NCBI RefSeq assembly: GCF_018905915.1
Contig: NZ_CP064782.1
Location: 1,550,001 to 1,614,000, forward strand
From: Azospira inquinata
GTDB taxonomy: Bacteria > Pseudomonadota > Gammaproteobacteria > Burkholderiales > Rhodocyclaceae
Direction of reading: 5' to 3'
DNA: 64,000 bases
A program made the position numbers and the translations under genes. Below, piece after piece: positions 17,296-27,309 of this stretch (the first letter of the stretch is position 1; each line of letters starts with the position of its first letter). The notes beneath the pieces are model-generated. The model was not told where the DNA came from. It ran no database searches and was given only the letters and a program-made list of their open reading frames with translations.

Positions 17296-18432
17296 GTGGC
17301 GGCCAATAAACGGCGCCTGCGGGCCCGGTGGCTGGGGCTGCACCGCTGGCTGGGCCTGCCCCTGGGGCTGGTGTTTGCCCTGGTGGGGGTGAGCGGCAGC
17401 CTGCTGGGCTTTTACCCGGAGCTGGACCTGGCCCTCAATCCCCCGCCCCACGCCCTCCTAACCGTGGGGCCAGACTACTCCTGGCAACCGGTAGCCGACC
17501 GCCTGCGCCGGGCCTACCCGGCCTACGACGGCCCCTGGCGCATCGAGGTGCCCCTGGCCCCCGGGCAGCCCATCCTGGCCCGCTACTACCATCCGCCGGA
17601 GCGCCCGGGCAAAAGCTTCGGCCCCCGGCTGGTGAGCCTGGACCCGGCCACCCTGGCCATTCTTCAGGACCGCTATTGGGGCGACGGGGGCCTCACCTGG
17701 GTCTATGACCTGCACTACACCCTGTTCCTGGACCGCAGCGGCCGCCAGCTACTGGCGGGCATGGCTGCCTTGCTCCTGCTCTCCCTGGGCTCCGGCCTCT
17801 GGCTCTGGTGGCCCACCCCGGGCCATTGGCGGGAACGCAGCCGCTGGCGCATCCGCCCCGGCCGGGTGCGGGCCACCTACGACTGGCATGTGTTGAGCGG
17901 CCTCTACAGCGCGCCCCTGCTGGCCCTGCTGCTGATGACCGGCCTAGTGCTGGAAATCCCAGAACCCGTGGAACGTCTGCTCCAAATCCCCCAACCGGCT
18001 CCCCCGACCTCGTCTCCCCCGGCTCCTGGCCAACGCCCCATCACCCTGGATCAAGCCCTGGTTGTGGCCCGCCACACCTTTCCCGGAGCCCAATCCCGCT
18101 GGCTGGAAATTCCCCCACGGGCTGGCGGCCTCACCCACATCACCCTGTGGCAACCCGGCGAACCGGGCCGCCGCTTCCCCAAAACCCAGGTCTGGCTAGA
18201 CCCCCAGGGCCACCTCCTGGCCCAACGTAATCCCCTCAAGGAACCCACGGCACCTAGCCTAATGCGCTGGCTCCATCCCCTACACAATGGCGAATGCCTA
18301 GGCCTCCCCGGCCGTCTCGCCGTCACCCTAGCGGGGCTATTGCCACTGGGGTTATGGGTGAGCGGATGGAGGCGGTGGCGGCAGAAGCGGGGTGGAAAAG
18401 AAACGAACAAACTTAGGGCTAGTAGCGACTAA
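17296..18432 (+). CDS. PepSY-associated transmembrane protein
   Basis: A 378-residue inner-membrane protein of the PepSY_TM family. It has a first transmembrane helix at about residues 17-38 (GLPLGLVFALVGVSGSLLGF), a periplasmic PepSY-like stretch, helices near 155-172 and 202-220, a second periplasmic part, and a last helix near 335-355. Conserved His residues near the helices suggest heme or metal binding. It starts with GTG 2 bases after the TonB receptor stop and is surely co-translated. These proteins are linked to ferric-siderophore reduction. The GC-rich codon use ends with this gene; the AT-richer island begins right after it. Confidence 0.87.
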   Translation: MAANKRRLRARWLGLHRWLGLPLGLVFALVGVSGSLLGFYPELDLALNPPPHALLTVGPDYSWQPVADRLRRAYPAYDGPWRIEVPLAPGQPILARYYHPPERPGKSFGPRLVSLDPATLAILQDRYWGDGGLTWVYDLHYTLFLDRSGRQLLAGMAALLLLSLGSGLWLWWPTPGHWRERSRWRIRPGRVRATYDWHVLSGLYSAPLLALLLMTGLVLEIPEPVERLLQIPQPAPPTSSPPAPGQRPITLDQALVVARHTFPGAQSRWLEIPPRAGGLTHITLWQPGEPGRRFPKTQVWLDPQGHLLAQRNPLKEPTAPSLMRWLHPLHNGECLGLPGRLAVTLAGLLPLGLWVSGWRRWRQKRGGKETNKLRASSD

Positions 18433-18568
18433 GCGCCTGCTCAAATAATCCCCGAATTTTGTTTTTAGGGTACATAGATAAGCCAGTATCCATGTAGCCC
18501 TCATTTTCGAGGTGGAGCCAGAGTTCTAAGGCTGATATCAATCCCAGACAATCCTGTTCCGAAGCCAA
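18419..18568 (-). CDS. Possible 49-residue protein or gene remnant at the island edge
   Basis: A short minus-strand frame beginning with TTG, preceded by GAGGAAAGG, encodes 49 residues with a globular, helix-rich composition (ISALELWLHLENEGYMDTG near the middle). This is unlike a random shadow frame. Its end overlaps the PepSY gene tail by 14 bases. It could be a small intact gene or the C-terminal remnant of a larger one cut by insertion of the island. I do not recognise the family. The rest of the gap up to 18798 shows no other gene. Confidence 0.35.
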   Translation of the reverse strand: MASEQDCLGLISALELWLHLENEGYMDTGLSMYPKNKIRGLFEQALSRY

Positions 18569-18798
18569 CTACGCCTTTCCTCTTACCTGAATCGGGCGGC
18601 AAAGCGCAAGTCACCTGGCGCTCAGGAATTGCCGTTCAGCGCGCGTTGCAGTCGTCAGATCAAGATTTATCAGAGACGGCCTAGAAGCCAAGCGACGACA
18701 GCCAATCCATCAAGGAACGAGTGCTTCGGCTGACAAGTGGACTTAAATAACATCGCAACCCAAAATGGATCCCCCTTACTTGAGATCATGATAAATTC

Positions 18799-19878
18799 AT
18801 GGTCAACTCAAATAAATGCTACATGGGATACACGTTGTATATCACTGCACCGATACTGGATGACCTTTTAAGGAAGGTTTTTCAGAAACTGCTAAACAAA
18901 AAGCTGCTCAACGGCAGAGGGCGGGTCAATCCCACGAAGGGCCCTAACGTCGAACGAACCGGGGTGATGTTAAATATTGACAAGCCAAGGGCACGTCTTA
19001 GCAGAACAGAGCGAAAGGGAACTCTTTTCAGCTGCTTGGGTGAGTTTCTTTGGTATGCCTCGGGTTCATCCAGTTTAGATTTCATCAATTATTACATCTC
19101 TATCTACGATCAATTTGCGGAGGAGGATGGAAGTATCCATGGTGCTTACGGACCTCGTATATTCGGGGAACCCAATGGCCAGTTAGAACGAGTAATTTCA
19201 GGCCTTAAAGCGAACCCTGCTTCACGAAAAGCCGTAATCCAAATCTTTGATGCAGCAGATACCGAAAAAAGCTACAAAGATGTGCCATGCACATGCACTA
19301 TGCAGTTCTTCGTTCGATCTGGTCGTTTGGATATGGTGACTTACATGCGCTCAAACGATGCATTTAAGGGCCTCCCACACGACGTATTTGCCTTCACGAT
19401 GATACAGGAACTCGTTGCACGGTCGCTCGGCGTAGAGTTGGGCACTTACAAACATGTCGTCGGTAGTCTCCATCTTTATGATGAAGATAGAGATAAAGCC
19501 GAGGAGTTTCTATCAGAGGGCTGGCAAAGCGAAGTTTTGATGCCAGAAATGCCTCGCGGTGATCCTTGGCCAAGTCTGAGAATGCTACTTGATGCAGAAA
19601 GCGATATTCGACTAGGCAAGGTTGTTGGTGCAAACCTTCAGGAAGTTGATCCTTATTGGGCCGATTTAATCCGCATTCTTCAAATTTTCAACTACACAAA
19701 AGATACCCAAGAGCACGCGAAGTTTGCATTGATTACCCCGCTAAAACAACGGATGGCATCCAACATCTATTCAGTCTACATAGATAAACGGGAGGCATCA
19801 CATCTAGATAAGATGGCTCACCACACTGGACCGGAACAACTCGAACTGTTGTCCGTGCCGGTAACGGAGGAAAAATGA
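18799..19878 (+). CDS. Thymidylate-synthase-like pyrimidine (hydroxy)methyltransferase
   Basis: A 359-residue member of the thymidylate synthase superfamily. The catalytic Cys is Cys164 (VPCTCTMQF), the phosphate Arg is Arg184 (YMRSND), Glu82 sits in GEFLWY, and the sugar-binding His225 and Tyr227 are in SLHLY. Two key positions differ from ThyA: the His after the catalytic Cys is Thr165, and the base-reading Asn (Asn177 in E. coli) is Asp195 in GLPHDVF. Asp at that position is what T4 dCMP hydroxymethylase uses to read cytosine, so a dCMP or CMP substrate and hydroxymethylation are more likely than dTMP synthesis. It overlaps the next gene by ATGA, and its codon use is AT-richer than that of the flanking chromosome. 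The start is uncertain. Confidence 0.8.
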   Translation: MVNSNKCYMGYTLYITAPILDDLLRKVFQKLLNKKLLNGRGRVNPTKGPNVERTGVMLNIDKPRARLSRTERKGTLFSCLGEFLWYASGSSSLDFINYYISIYDQFAEEDGSIHGAYGPRIFGEPNGQLERVISGLKANPASRKAVIQIFDAADTEKSYKDVPCTCTMQFFVRSGRLDMVTYMRSNDAFKGLPHDVFAFTMIQELVARSLGVELGTYKHVVGSLHLYDEDRDKAEEFLSEGWQSEVLMPEMPRGDPWPSLRMLLDAESDIRLGKVVGANLQEVDPYWADLIRILQIFNYTKDTQEHAKFALITPLKQRMASNIYSVYIDKREASHLDKMAHHTGPEQLELLSVPVTEEK

Positions 19879-20678
19879 TTCCTGCTCTACGGGATCTTGT
19901 ACGAAGACTGGAAAGCCCAGATATAGCCAAAGCTGGAGTTATTCAATGGGGGAGTCCAGTCCCCGCATTTGGTAACTTGGGATCATCTCAAATTGCCACA
20001 TTAGGCCTAAATCCGAGTAATCGCGAATTTGTGGATATAACAGGAAACGAGCTAATTGGCCCATTTCGTCGATTTCAAACATTACGCTCATTAAGGTTAA
20101 ACCATTGGTCTAATGCAACTTCCAAACATCTTCATCTGATCGAAGAATCGTGCACCAATTATTTTTTAAGGAACCCGTACGACGCATGGTTTAAAGAGCT
20201 AGACAGCCTTCTTGGCGGCGTTGCCTCCTACTATTACGAAAACTCGACGCGATCCGCATGCCATCTGGATGTAATTCCATATGCTACCTTATCAAAGTGG
20301 ACTGATCTATCAGCACTCCAACGTTCAAAATTGATTGAAATAGCAGGCGATACGCTGGGTCTATTGCTTCGAGATTCGTCAATCAAATTTCTGATACTAA
20401 ACGGAAATTCTGTAGTTAAAAATGTTGAGTCGGTCTCTGGCTCACGACTAACATGTATAGAGATGCCAGACTGGACCTTGCCAAGAAAAGCTCACGGTGG
20501 AGTTCGTGGTGTTTCTTATTTTGGGCGTATTAATAAAATCCGTGGGGTTAACTTAGGTCGCGAAATTACTGTCTTGGGCTTTAATCACAACATTCAAAGC
20601 AGTTTCGGGGTTACGAACGAAGTAAAGACAAACATTCGTCGTTGGATAATTGATTCAATTGGGGGGGGAATTTCTTGA
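19875..20678 (+). CDS. Uracil-DNA-glycosylase-superfamily-like protein
   Basis: A 267-residue protein overlapping the previous stop (ATGA). Several blocks recall the uracil-DNA-glycosylase fold: a strand with GLNPSNREF (residues 44-52) like the GINPG motif of the TDG/MUG group, HLDVIPY (130-136), a hydrophobic strand FLILNGNSVV (172-181) and a final VLGFNHNIQSSFGV (233-246), where HPS-like motif II would fall. If the fold is right, it may bind or excise a modified base made with the upstream hydroxymethylase-like enzyme. The assignment comes from motif order only and could be wrong. No membrane segment or signal peptide is seen. Confidence 0.55.
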   Translation: MIPALRDLVRRLESPDIAKAGVIQWGSPVPAFGNLGSSQIATLGLNPSNREFVDITGNELIGPFRRFQTLRSLRLNHWSNATSKHLHLIEESCTNYFLRNPYDAWFKELDSLLGGVASYYYENSTRSACHLDVIPYATLSKWTDLSALQRSKLIEIAGDTLGLLLRDSSIKFLILNGNSVVKNVESVSGSRLTCIEMPDWTLPRKAHGGVRGVSYFGRINKIRGVNLGREITVLGFNHNIQSSFGVTNEVKTNIRRWIIDSIGGGIS

Positions 20679-21604
20679 GAAGCCACGATATTCAATTTGC
20701 AGACAGCCTAGAAGGTGCACTTAGGCAGTATCATAATACGATTAGGCCACTTCCTGGGATTACCCAAGCATCATGTATTCAATCGTTGATAGAGCAAGTT
20801 ATTGACAGTCGTCGCCGCATTGAATTCGTCAATAAGATACTGTCGCTAACTCATAGTCCGAATCGCGCAGATCCATTATGCGACCTATTTGACCCTCTTC
20901 GAGCAGCCGTATTGCACCTTCGCCAAGAGGAAATTGACGAAGCATGCTGGCTTATTTTTCTATCAATTCACTTCGGAAAACATTCTCGATCTGGGTGGCG
21001 CTTAGTCCGTGATGTCTATAGCAAACTCGGTGAAGATGAGCCATGGACTTGGGAGCGCACATCTTCGGATCCGGGCGCCTTCTTTAATTGGATGTCTCAA
21101 CGCTATCAAGCACTATCAGGGCATGGCAGAGGATTTGGTAATCATCGAAAATACGAAAGTCTGAAGCCAACAGCCAAAGGAACAGGCTCAGTCATAATGA
21201 GCTATGTTGATTGGATTCGTCCTTACGGTAGCCACTCTGCACTTTTCGCACACGCTCAGGACATTGTCGGAGCAGACCCCAAAGCAATGTTCGGATATCT
21301 GTATCGGACCATGCCGGTACTGCGATTCGGTAGGACAGCAAAATTTGATTACCTAACAATGCTTGGAAAGATGAGAATCACACCGATCCAGCCAGATCTC
21401 GCATACCTTACTCAAGCTACAGGGCCATTACGTGGCGCCCGTCTTCTTTTTGGAGGTGCGACAAACTCCAATATTTTGGCAGCCACCCTTGACGCTTGGT
21501 TGGTCGAACTGGATTCTTACCTTGGTTTAGGCATGCAGGTTTTGGAGGACTCTCTTTGTAATTGGCAAAAATCGCCTGGAAACTACATTAGATTTCGAGG
21601 ATAG
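20675..21604 (+). CDS. Alpha-glutamyl/putrescinyl-thymine pyrophosphorylase clade 3-like protein
   Basis: A 309-residue protein starting with TTG that overlaps the previous stop (TTGA), with a strong G-run ribosome binding site. Hallmark blocks are LRQYHNTIRPLPGI (about 16-29), SHSALFAHAQDIVG (186-199), FGRTAKFDYLTMLGK (218-232) and ATGPLRGARLLFGG (248-261). I associate these with the clade 3 alpha-glutamyl/putrescinyl-thymine pyrophosphorylase family. A related clade in phages is the 5-hydroxymethyl-dU DNA kinase, which phosphorylates hydroxymethyl bases in DNA before further decoration. With the two upstream genes this suggests a base-modification operon. The family call is from memory of its motifs; the reaction in this clade is unproven. 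Confidence 0.6.
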   Translation: MRSHDIQFADSLEGALRQYHNTIRPLPGITQASCIQSLIEQVIDSRRRIEFVNKILSLTHSPNRADPLCDLFDPLRAAVLHLRQEEIDEACWLIFLSIHFGKHSRSGWRLVRDVYSKLGEDEPWTWERTSSDPGAFFNWMSQRYQALSGHGRGFGNHRKYESLKPTAKGTGSVIMSYVDWIRPYGSHSALFAHAQDIVGADPKAMFGYLYRTMPVLRFGRTAKFDYLTMLGKMRITPIQPDLAYLTQATGPLRGARLLFGGATNSNILAATLDAWLVELDSYLGLGMQVLEDSLCNWQKSPGNYIRFRG

Positions 21605-22696
21605 CTAACTCCAGGAAAAGCGATTTTTAAGTCGGGCCATTTCAGAATGGCCTAGTATTTTTCTGAATTGGAGCTGCCCTACAATTATTCCAGGGGACAC
21701 CCCAATTTTTCTTGCAAATCGAATAATTGCCTTTGCATCTTTTGGTAGAGAGCGCAGTTCTGACTCTAGCTCAGGGGGGATAAGGAAAGAGGAGGCAAAT
21801 TGGTTTGCCTCTTCTTCTTCTTTACTAAAACAAGTTCCTTTTCCCTCCATAAAAATCAACTCATTACTATGGAGTAGCAAGTGCGCAGCTTCGTGAAAGA
21901 AGGTAAACCAAAAATGGTCGTCCGATAGATATCTGAAACTAAGCATTAGTAGAGCTTTTTCAGGAGAAATAAATTTTGTTGCACCGCTAGCACGACAGCC
22001 TGACGGAACTCGAACGATCACTACTGCAACCCCACAAGCCGCACACAGAGCTTGCAGCCTTGGCAAAAATGCTTGGGGATCTTTCTCCCGCGTTAACAAA
22101 CGAACTGCATTAAGCTGAGATCTGAATGCTTCAGAATTCCAATCTGCGCAATTAAGTCCTTTCGCCTCACGCTCTCCTTCTCGGAGCCAAGTAGCGGTAG
22201 CTATTTCTTGCGAATCAAAGGTCTGAGATGTCCTAAAAGCCGTTTTTTGTAGGAGATCGTCGAATCTTCCTTGCAAAGCTCGAATATTTGGAAGATCGAA
22301 AAAACGTAGCGCTTCGCTCGCGTAATCAGATGGTTTGGAACAATGGGGAATCCAGCCAAACTCGACCATATCCTTTATCGGAAGCTGTTTTAGCAAGCCG
22401 CTAATCGATTCGAGCGAATCCTCTTCGGCATATAGGCGATCCAAATCCTGCCGATACTGTTCCTCCCTGGCTATCCAAAACGTTTGGGATGTGCCAAAAA
22501 ATGTCGCTAGTCGTTCAGCCAAGATGAGATCAATAGCATGACGGCCATCTAGTAGCTTGGTAGCAGTCGAACCACATTCTCCAATTGCATCAGCGAACTC
22601 ATCGAATGAAATGGATCGATCGTTAAGTATATCGAGAATCGTAGCCCCCGGCGGGCTAGCCCACCTCGGTCGAAAACTGAATTCAGTCCAGAGCAT
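21605..22696 (-). CDS. HigA-type antitoxin with ImmA/IrrE metallopeptidase domain
   Basis: A 363-residue protein with an N-terminal Xre/HigA-like helix-turn-helix (about residues 20-75) and a C-terminal ImmA/IrrE-type zinc peptidase domain, whose HEAAH motif (FFHEAAHLLLHS) is near residue 268 with a downstream EEEANQFAS block supplying the third ligand. This fusion is found as the antitoxin of HigBA-like pairs. It starts 14 bases inside the end of the toxin gene, so the two are co-translated, toxin first as in higBA. Its stop abuts the stop of the plus-strand base-modification gene, with no gap. It probably represses its own promoter and neutralises the toxin. Confidence 0.8.
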   Translation of the reverse strand: MLWTEFSFRPRWASPPGATILDILNDRSISFDEFADAIGECGSTATKLLDGRHAIDLILAERLATFFGTSQTFWIAREEQYRQDLDRLYAEEDSLESISGLLKQLPIKDMVEFGWIPHCSKPSDYASEALRFFDLPNIRALQGRFDDLLQKTAFRTSQTFDSQEIATATWLREGEREAKGLNCADWNSEAFRSQLNAVRLLTREKDPQAFLPRLQALCAACGVAVVIVRVPSGCRASGATKFISPEKALLMLSFRYLSDDHFWFTFFHEAAHLLLHSNELIFMEGKGTCFSKEEEEANQFASSFLIPPELESELRSLPKDAKAIIRFARKIGVSPGIIVGQLQFRKILGHSEMARLKNRFSWS

Positions 22697-23015
22697 GCTT
22701 TTCTATCCCAAGAATGCGAATACGGGTAACCCGTGACCAATCAACAACTCCAGAAGCCGCTATGGGCAACTTATTGTGATTCGCACAAAAAACCAGTTTG
22801 TAATTATTACCAAGATCAATCGACATACGAGCCCCATTTGGATCGCCATATGCTTGAGGGTTGCCGACAGGAATCTGGCCGATCCGTTCTATGGCGCGGA
22901 GATCTGACAATCTTGCATGCAACGTTGTTGCAGTTGCCTCTCCAAGTTCCCGCTCTGCTTTAGTAGGATCTTCGCAAAGATCCCGCAGTGATCTATGTTC
23001 GAAAGAGAGTTCCAA
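22683..23015 (-). CDS. HigB/RelE-family toxin
   Basis: A 110-residue protein of the RelE/ParE fold. Near the C-terminal half are the strand NNYKLVFCANH and the final VTRIRILGIEKH, typical of HigB-like ribosome-dependent mRNA endonucleases. It starts with TTG, preceded by GAGG 10 bases upstream. It precedes the antitoxin gene and overlaps it by 14 bases, the order usual for higBA and opposite to most type II modules. The first 60 residues are more divergent. Stabilising the island is the likely role. Confidence 0.72.
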   Translation of the reverse strand: MELSFEHRSLRDLCEDPTKAERELGEATATTLHARLSDLRAIERIGQIPVGNPQAYGDPNGARMSIDLGNNYKLVFCANHNKLPIAASGVVDWSRVTRIRILGIEKHALD

Positions 23016-23040
23016 CGAAAATAAGCCTCAGGACTAGGCA

Positions 23041-23343
23041 TTATAAAAACAAGCAAAGTTGACATTCTTGAGCTAGCGCTTCCTGCAACAGTTCCGATTT
23101 CATTTTTTTAGCACAAGTAATAATTTGCACCCTCGTTCCTGCAAAAGCACCCAAGAGAAGTGCTTTCTCCCGACATTCTACCGTAATGTCATAGTGTGGA
23201 TATGACGCATTTCTTTGAAACCACGATCGGCGTAACCCCAGGAGAATTGCAAATGAATGCAGTTCACTCAATGAGTCTGCTACAAGGTGGCACCAGAACT
23301 TTCCTTGCCACTCGATACGTGCATTATCTACATAGACTGTCAT
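23041..23343 (-). CDS. DUF4031 domain protein
   Basis: A 100-residue protein that fits DUF4031 from its first residue: MTVYVDNARIEWQGK, then CHLVADSLSELHSFA and the signature ASYPHYDIT near residue 47. These small proteins are common in actinobacteria and proteobacteria and in phages, and their function is unknown. It stands 25 bases upstream of the toxin gene on the same strand and may share its promoter. Codon use is AT-rich like the rest of the island. Confidence 0.8.
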   Translation of the reverse strand: MTVYVDNARIEWQGKFWCHLVADSLSELHSFAILLGLRRSWFQRNASYPHYDITVECREKALLLGAFAGTRVQIITCAKKMKSELLQEALAQECQLCLFL

Positions 23344-23518
23344 ACGAACCCAAAACTGTGATTTTCAACGCAACACACATAACAATTTCAAACTAGGCTT
23401 CCTCAGAAGAGCGAATTTAAGCACACTAGGGCAATCAGCGAACAGCCCTGGCTAAGGGGGGAAACGTTAGTGCGACGATGTCACATGCCAACGTCCGCTC
23501 AGGCCGAGTAGCAGACGT

Positions 23519-23548
23519 AAAAAAGCCACTACTGTGAGTGGCTTTTTT
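23519..23548. terminator. Bidirectional terminator at the island/gyrB border
   Basis: The stem GCCACT/AGTGGC with a six-base loop is flanked by six A and six T residues, so it works from both sides. It probably ends the gyrB transcript on the minus strand and insulates the island. Confidence 0.85.
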
Positions 23549-23555
23549 AGGTTTC

Positions 23556-23612
23556 TAGGATTCTAATTACTTCTAGATTTGTGAGACAAATCTAGAAGTA
23601 AATGAGATCCTA
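23556..23612. repeat. Perfect 16-base inverted repeat with outer stem
   Basis: Arms TTACTTCTAGATTTGT and ACAAATCTAGAAGTAA (23567-23582 and 23586-23601) are exact complements around a GAG loop. An outer stem TAGGAT/ATCCTA (23556-23561 and 23607-23612) extends it. It lies 6 bases from the gyrB stop, has no T-run, and is AT-rich, so it is not a normal terminator. It may protect the gyrB mRNA end or mark the edge of a mobile segment. Confidence 0.7.
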
Positions 23613-23617
23613 CAATA

Positions 23618-27309
<3,692 letters not shown>

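Follow-up and report, generated by a model that had tools for sequence, protein, structure and literature searches.

What do three overlapping genes of the bacterium Azospira inquinata do, and do they form a system of their own or part of a larger one? The genes lie on the forward strand of a 64,000-nucleotide stretch of the chromosome (contig NZ_CP064782.1, positions 1,550,001 to 1,614,000; 'the window', whose own numbering is used throughout). The first (P1, 18799-19878) encodes a thymidylate synthase (TS)-like protein of 359 aa; the second (P2, 19875-20678), a protein of 267 aa; and the third (P3, 20675-21604), a protein of 309 aa belonging to the aGPT-PPlase clade 3/amino acid:DNA transferase family. 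A first-pass annotation, made from the letters of the sequence, had noted that the three are co-directional and overlap by ATGA (19875-19878) and TTGA (20675-20678), which a check of the open reading frames (ORFs) confirmed, and had proposed that the trio makes, recognizes or removes a modified pyrimidine, perhaps as an antiviral defense. We find that the trio faces a second operon, on the reverse strand, with which it is inherited. This comprises a gene for a HigA-type helix-turn-helix (HTH) fused to an ImmA/IrrE (M78) metallopeptidase (HigA-ImmA, 21605-22696; 363 aa), a HigB-like gene (22683-23015; 110 aa) and, as a frequent accessory, a DUF4031 gene (23041-23343; 100 aa). The stop codons of the P3 and HigA-ImmA genes abut. 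The two operons probably serve in conflict with phages or mobile elements.

The limits of the unit emerge from 115 relatives of P3, surveyed by profile search of their ORFs. They comprise 80 loci on genome contigs, the best of 219; 25 loci on viral contigs; seven of eight matching plasmid records (the eighth, H9, is an apparent copy of H8 and was omitted); and three other genomes (a set of 398 genomes of the phylum gave four matches, one of them the genome of the window itself). These sets overlap in part, some viral contigs repeating genome or plasmid loci. A TS-like gene accompanies P3 in 112 of the 115 relatives (genome 79/80, viral 24/25, plasmid 7/7, other 2/3). In 79 of the 80 chromosomal relatives it lies close to the P3 gene and is read in the same direction, so the linkage is not due to chance. 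An ImmA gene occurs in 110 (77, 24, 7 and 2, in the same order) and is convergent with the P3 operon in 109 of these, the sole exception in orientation being locus L028. The HigB-like gene occurs in 76, 22, 7 and 2 relatives, respectively; P2 in 37 of the 115 (32, 4, 1 and 0); and DUF4031 in 29 (26, 3, 0 and 0). Five relatives have no ImmA gene, and in four of them (L025, L086, L091 and L094) the DNA ends 0-500 bp past P3; in L118, P3 itself is at a contig end. In full, then, the unit runs from the TS-like gene through P2, when present, to aGPT-PPlase3, and faces HigA-ImmA and, behind it, the HigB-like gene, with DUF4031 as a frequent extra. A unit confined to 18799-21604 is ruled out by the conserved facing operon. 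The idea of the trio as one unit stands for genes 1 and 3, which do recur together across the 115 relatives; it falls short for the optional P2, the real unit having two operons that face each other, with five or six genes in all, and it omitted the HigB-like/HigA-ImmA pair altogether.

The four core proteins also co-diversify. Pairwise protein distances were compared across the 91 non-redundant loci in which all four core genes are present. The correlations are 0.72 for P3 and TS, 0.76 for ImmA and TS, 0.82 for ImmA and P3, 0.71 for HigB and TS, 0.71 for HigB and P3, and 0.75 for HigB and ImmA; shuffled distances give correlations of about 0, with maxima of 0.10-0.16, and shared host ancestry, which this test does not separate, may contribute. 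The two operons travel together, and we regard the architecture and co-inheritance of the unit as nearly certain. In five loci (L009, L023, L044, L049 and L076), one or two of the system genes are split across two reading frames, and some copies therefore look decayed.

What the unit makes is suggested most directly by P1. That gene 1 is a thymidylate synthase homologue, as first proposed, is borne out by matches to PF00303 in Pfam (109 bits) and to the phage TS family phrog_5131 in PHROGs (160 bits). Its best PDB match, however, is the CMP 5-hydroxymethylase MilA (169 bits), versus 90 bits for the best thymidylate synthase. In an alignment of 111 TS rows (the window counted twice; E. coli TS numbering), Cys146, Thr147, Ser167 and Asp177 are each present in 111/111; they are Cys164, Thr165, Ser185 and Asp195 of the window protein. 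Position 126 is Arg in 107 rows and Lys in four, and Glu58, a conserved residue like the catalytic Cys146, is present in 110. The genome's ordinary ThyA has Asn at position 177 and His at 147. Papers are cited here by their PMC identifiers. Asp at position 177 is common to enzymes with cytosine substrates, and Asn to those with uracil substrates, while deoxy substrates are associated with Ser and Arg where MilA has Ala and Lys (PMC5175136); a second paper gives the same rule for position 177 and also discusses position 147 (PMC8670742). Because Asp, Ser, Thr and Cys are found in 111/111 rows, the predicted base is cytosine rather than thymine. The residue pattern makes deoxycytidine monophosphate (dCMP) the expected, and very probably the true, substrate, and hydroxymethylation the likelier reaction. 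In the T4 dCMP hydroxymethylase, Asp145 activates water (PMC6400193); at this position, placed three residues before the Cys from that paper, the rows have Asp in 67 cases (the window among them), Glu in 33, Ser in seven and other residues in four. The present enzymes resemble the T4 enzyme and MilA in the Asp at the base-reading position, the nucleophilic Cys and the conserved Glu. They differ in sitting next to aGPT-PPlase3, whether on bacterial chromosomes, on plasmids or on viral contigs, and, from MilA, in Ser167 and Arg126, which predict dCMP. Three other activities were considered and rejected: plain thymidylate synthesis is ruled out by the second, ordinary ThyA and by Asp at 177; hydroxymethylation of dUMP (deoxyuridine monophosphate), by the same invariant Asp; and a MilA-like ribonucleotide pathway, by Ser167 and the mostly Arg126. 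The earlier proposal of pyrimidine modification is upheld in that a pyrimidine-modifying enzyme of the TS superfamily is joined to aGPT-PPlase3, and needs changing in that the predicted substrate is dCMP, not dUMP.

P3 is firmly a member of the aGPT-PPlase clade 3/ADDT family, as its first reading had it, with 355 bits to PF18746 (aGPT-Pplase3; cut-off 25) and 239 bits to PF18724 (ADDT; cut-off 26.2) in Pfam; a PDB profile search with P3 gave no match. In phages, thymine is hypermodified by an aGPT-PPlase/ADDT protein together with a TS homologue and a DNA kinase for 5-hydroxymethyldeoxyuridine (5-hmdU). The present unit is like this pathway in combining a TS-superfamily enzyme with an aGPT-PPlase family protein. 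It is unlike it in the Asp177 of its TS, in place of the dUMP-type Asn177, in the attached ImmA/HigB-like operon, and in the kinase: the 5-hmdU DNA kinase that the first annotation had cited from phages was found among none of the six window proteins. In phage phiW-14, putrescinyl side chains are added after polymerization, the intermediate in the DNA being 5-(hydroxymethyl)-O-pyrophosphoryl-uracil (PMC5977210).

Both operons contain hints of an attachment to DNA replication. The DUF4031 protein (PF13223, 86 bits in Pfam; no credible relative in a PDB profile search) ends in the window with QLCLF (23047-23061, reverse strand), and a strict C-terminus of the QLxLF type is present in 24 of the 30 DUF4031 rows of the system, window included (shuffles: mean 0.46, maximum 3). 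By reading, none of six DUF4031 proteins from outside the system (same phylum, three genera; short flanks without TS, P3 or ImmA matches) has it. QLxLF is the consensus for binding the beta clamp, and is mostly C-terminal (PMC4549789). The tail of the window's TS-like protein contains QLELL (residues 347-351; 19837-19851, forward strand). Among 109 such tails the strict motif occurs in six (shuffles: mean 0.23, maximum 2), and a relaxed form, its pattern chosen after the tails were inspected, in 18 (mean 0.9, maximum 5). Counted over full-length TS sequences, the motif shows no enrichment (9 versus 7.1 expected), and in the tails of P2, P3, ImmA and the HigB-like protein it is not above chance. 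We regard the DUF4031 C-terminus and some TS tails as carrying a predicted motif of the sliding-clamp type.

The HigA-ImmA protein matches HigA structures at its N-terminus (E 2e-11, PDB profile search) and M78 at its C-terminus (40 bits, Pfam), where HExxH is invariant in 37 aligned sequences; among the PADLOC models it matches PD-Lambda-2_B best (E 3.2e-22). The HigB-like protein is related to a HigB profile by hhalign (83%, E 9e-6; controls at most 1.1%), and finds no credible relative in a PDB profile search. The HigB ribonuclease toxin ends in D-Y-H, residues with a catalytic role. This end is present in 15 of 16 HigB sequences and missing from all 20 HigB-like C-termini inspected, as it is from the window's protein. 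In PD-lambda-2, the HigA-peptidase protein is toxic alone, a HigB-like protein rescues, and the defense is abortive (PMC9519451). Here, likewise, a HigB-like gene (so assigned by the one profile comparison) accompanies a fusion of HigA HTH and M78 peptidase. The difference is that the third, P4-antitoxin-like component of PD-lambda-2 has no PADLOC match among the six window proteins, and a nucleotide-modification operon stands in its place.

P2 is harder to place. It had been credited with motifs like those of uracil-DNA glycosylase (UDG), which is fair as a remark on motifs and weak as an assignment, there being no family match and a signal from one UDG profile. Searches of P2 against Pfam, NCBIfam and PHROGs return no family, and PADLOC gives only DrmA (E 0.033). 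Pfam scans of 35 P2 members gave no UDG match, nor any family matching more than two of them; hhalign of P2 against UDG profiles, built from UDGs of genomes of the order, gave nothing; and a PDB profile search, no credible relative. The signal comes from a profile of five UDGs that we take to be of family 5: P2 members reach 11.0 bits with it, while 330 shuffled P2 sequences reach 1.8, P3 proteins 0.6 and ImmA proteins 0.4. A profile of the family 4 type gives 0.8 bits for P2 versus 5.6 for shuffles, and a mixed profile 5.0 versus 3.4, its alignments spanning only the stretch around GLNP. Membership of the UDG superfamily is possible. Should it hold, Brig1, a DNA glycosylase and defense protein of UDG-like fold that acts on modified hydroxymethylcytosine (PMC11078745), might serve as a model for P2.

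How could these parts act together? The TS-like enzyme, to judge from its residues, would convert dCMP and methylenetetrahydrofolate to 5-hydroxymethyl-dCMP. The aGPT-PPlase3 protein, as its family suggests, would then build on this 5-hydroxymethyl group, either at the nucleotide stage or in DNA; what it adds may be an amino acid or a polyamine. DUF4031, and the TS tail in some members, may dock on the DNA polymerase sliding clamp by their motifs, so that production or action would take place near the replication fork. By analogy with PD-lambda-2, the HigB-like/HigA-ImmA pair could behave as a switch: the peptidase protein would serve as regulator and, in latent form, as effector, under restraint by a HigB-like partner that lacks the usual catalytic end. 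Once infection or foreign replication upset either the pair or the modification, the cell would block the intruder or abort. For this reading, of a horizontally mobile two-operon conflict module in which modification based on 5-hydroxymethyldeoxycytidine (5-hydroxymethyl-dC) is coupled to a PD-lambda-2-like protease switch, we consider the chances about even in outline, and lower for any single detail. A bolder version of it is doubtful: that a transferable cellular system writes hypermodified cytosine at the fork, where a clamp-tethered dCMP hydroxymethylase and DUF4031 would supply aGPT-PPlase3, and that the protease pair reads the state of modification and triggers defense when foreign replication escapes it.

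Several observations weigh against the coupled reading. The largest hole in the proposed pathway, and in the product's route into DNA, is an unrecognized kinase: none for 5-hydroxymethyl-dCMP or a 5-hydroxymethyl base was found among the six window proteins, nor by eye in the 40 largest neighbor clusters, the host genome not having been searched. Seven Ser and four other residues at the T4 Asp145 position mean that the reaction could be methylation instead of hydroxymethylation. P2 and DUF4031 are both optional, and the clamp-type motif is present in a minority of TS tails. Locus L006 has neither TS nor ImmA within the 3.8 kb examined, and L080 has no TS despite available upstream DNA; the chromosomal set being the best 80 of 219, distant relatives may differ. 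HigA-ImmA also matches the capP and RmrA models of PADLOC, more weakly than PD-Lambda-2_B. A single profile comparison underlies the HigB-like assignment: neither Pfam nor PADLOC gives a HigB match, and against one single RelE/ParE sequence the protein scores 2.2% (E 0.021) in the same register. Nor was a promoter word common to both operons found, none of 96 loci scoring 12 or more, where 0.67 would be expected from mismatched pairs.

The same parts could be assembled otherwise. P3 comes from a DNA-modifying family, and the unit might mark its own carrier in the manner of restriction-modification, the operon hypermodifying the carrier's cytosine while a reader (P2, a neighboring Mrr-type nuclease or the protease) attacks unmarked DNA. 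The weak glycosylase-like signal of P2 would fit, as would the Mrr-type nuclease family (named from a Pfam scan of one member) that adjoins the unit in seven loci, at 29-31 bp in two of them. The conserved core, however, contains no nuclease, the Mrr family (seven loci) and P2 (37/115) being both optional, and no sequence-specificity protein was recognized; we think self-marking unlikely. Another possibility is that the product is a poison or signal: a free modified deoxycytidine nucleotide, under the control of the HTH-protease, that blocks phage polymerases or depletes dCTP, the host DNA staying unmarked. For this speak the absence of a recognized kinase, the action of characterized relatives of gene 1 on the free nucleotide, and a Nudix gene 9-39 bp upstream of TS in four loci, two being copies, which could clean the host pool; its best NCBIfam match, below cut-off, is a pyrimidine (deoxy)nucleoside triphosphate diphosphatase. 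Yet the family of P3 is named for transfer onto DNA, the chemistry of its phage relatives has been traced to polymerized DNA (PMC5977210), and the clamp-type motifs point to DNA as well, so that this account, too, seems improbable.

The two operons might, finally, have no joint mechanism at all, an addiction pair of the HigB/HigA type simply ensuring that mobile elements retain a cassette for metabolism or modification. The convergent operons without a common promoter word, and their mobile contexts, would fit such an arrangement. The same two operons are almost always paired, however, in 109 convergent loci, and the distance correlations across the operons match those within them; we consider it very improbable that they are merely fellow travelers.

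Some of these elements have been linked to defense already. DefensePredictor lists aGPT-PPlase as a predicted, unvalidated defense domain, has UDG and HTH in the abbreviation list of the figure concerned, and reports validated systems with a thymidylate synthase domain and a 5-hydroxymethyluracil kinase domain, in one system or several (PMC13092281). The present unit shares with those genes the aGPT-PPlase as a predicted defense domain; it differs in that the available part of that text gives no mechanism, cytosine specificity or clamp motif. The literature that we searched yielded no account of the composite unit, although an earlier mention of the link between TS and aGPT-PPlase3 may exist. 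If the coupling of 5-hydroxymethyl-dC-based modification to a protease switch is real, the use of a TS-superfamily enzyme to produce 5-hydroxymethyl-dC derivatives would extend beyond phages to bacterial mobile elements, and three themes that are usually separate would be joined: phage-type base hypermodification, ImmA-type defense and clamp-tethered enzymes. Testable functions would follow for aGPT-PPlase3, DUF4031 and the ImmA/HigB-like pair, and the predicted modified base or nucleotide could be sought directly by mass spectrometry.

The unit is horizontally mobile, and often occurs in mobile DNA. Its signs of mobility are low GC, carriage on plasmids, the 25 viral-contig loci, and resolvases and integrases among the recurrent neighbors. 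Hosts of the genome contigs, assigned to phyla from the titles of the records, include Pseudomonadota, Bacteroidota, Acidobacteriota, Chloroflexota, Planctomycetota, Myxococcota, Gemmatimonadota and Verrucomicrobiota; those of the plasmids include Spirochaetota and Actinomycetota. Searches of plasmid proteins found one record for P2 and eight for P3, and a search of phage proteins for P3 found none. On a Pantoea plasmid (L008), the unit is accompanied by phage-type genes (head processing, ddrA, lysis), and three viral-contig loci (L103-L105) have system genes of lengths identical to those of this plasmid locus, a pattern that suggests the unit as cargo of a phage-plasmid.

In the window, the unit lies within an AT-richer island, as had been noticed: GC is 0.43-0.49 in five 1-kb windows across 19-24 kb, and 0.53-0.71 in the rest. 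The trio is close to gyrB (23618-26149, reverse strand) and not, as had been stated, next to it, since three genes (21605-23343, reverse strand) intervene. The genome, a single contig of 3.28 Mb, carries its ordinary ThyA elsewhere. An Rfam scan of 17500-24500 gave no match, and a repeat search gave nothing convincing by way of a flanking direct repeat around the island. Between the DUF4031 gene and the end of gyrB, two neighboring inverted repeats (23515-23615), one with 16-nt arms (94%) and one with 30-nt arms (83%), may be a terminator or operator. Genes like dnaN and gyrB are also found in the flanks of three relatives (L075, L077 and L079), as gyrB is here, and the unit may repeatedly have inserted at the replication-gene cluster.

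Besides the Nudix and Mrr-type genes, nine loci, mostly on viral contigs, encode a conserved protein (121-191 aa; e.g. L106:10392-10805) that matches no family and resembles, by eye, pyrophosphohydrolases of the MazG type. In seven of the nine, its gene precedes the HigB-like gene by 31-79 bp. These accessory genes, each in a minority of loci, would fit a theme of modified dC or DNA conflict. In three loci (L015, L027 and L036), a small HTH gene lies on the opposite strand between TS and DUF4031.

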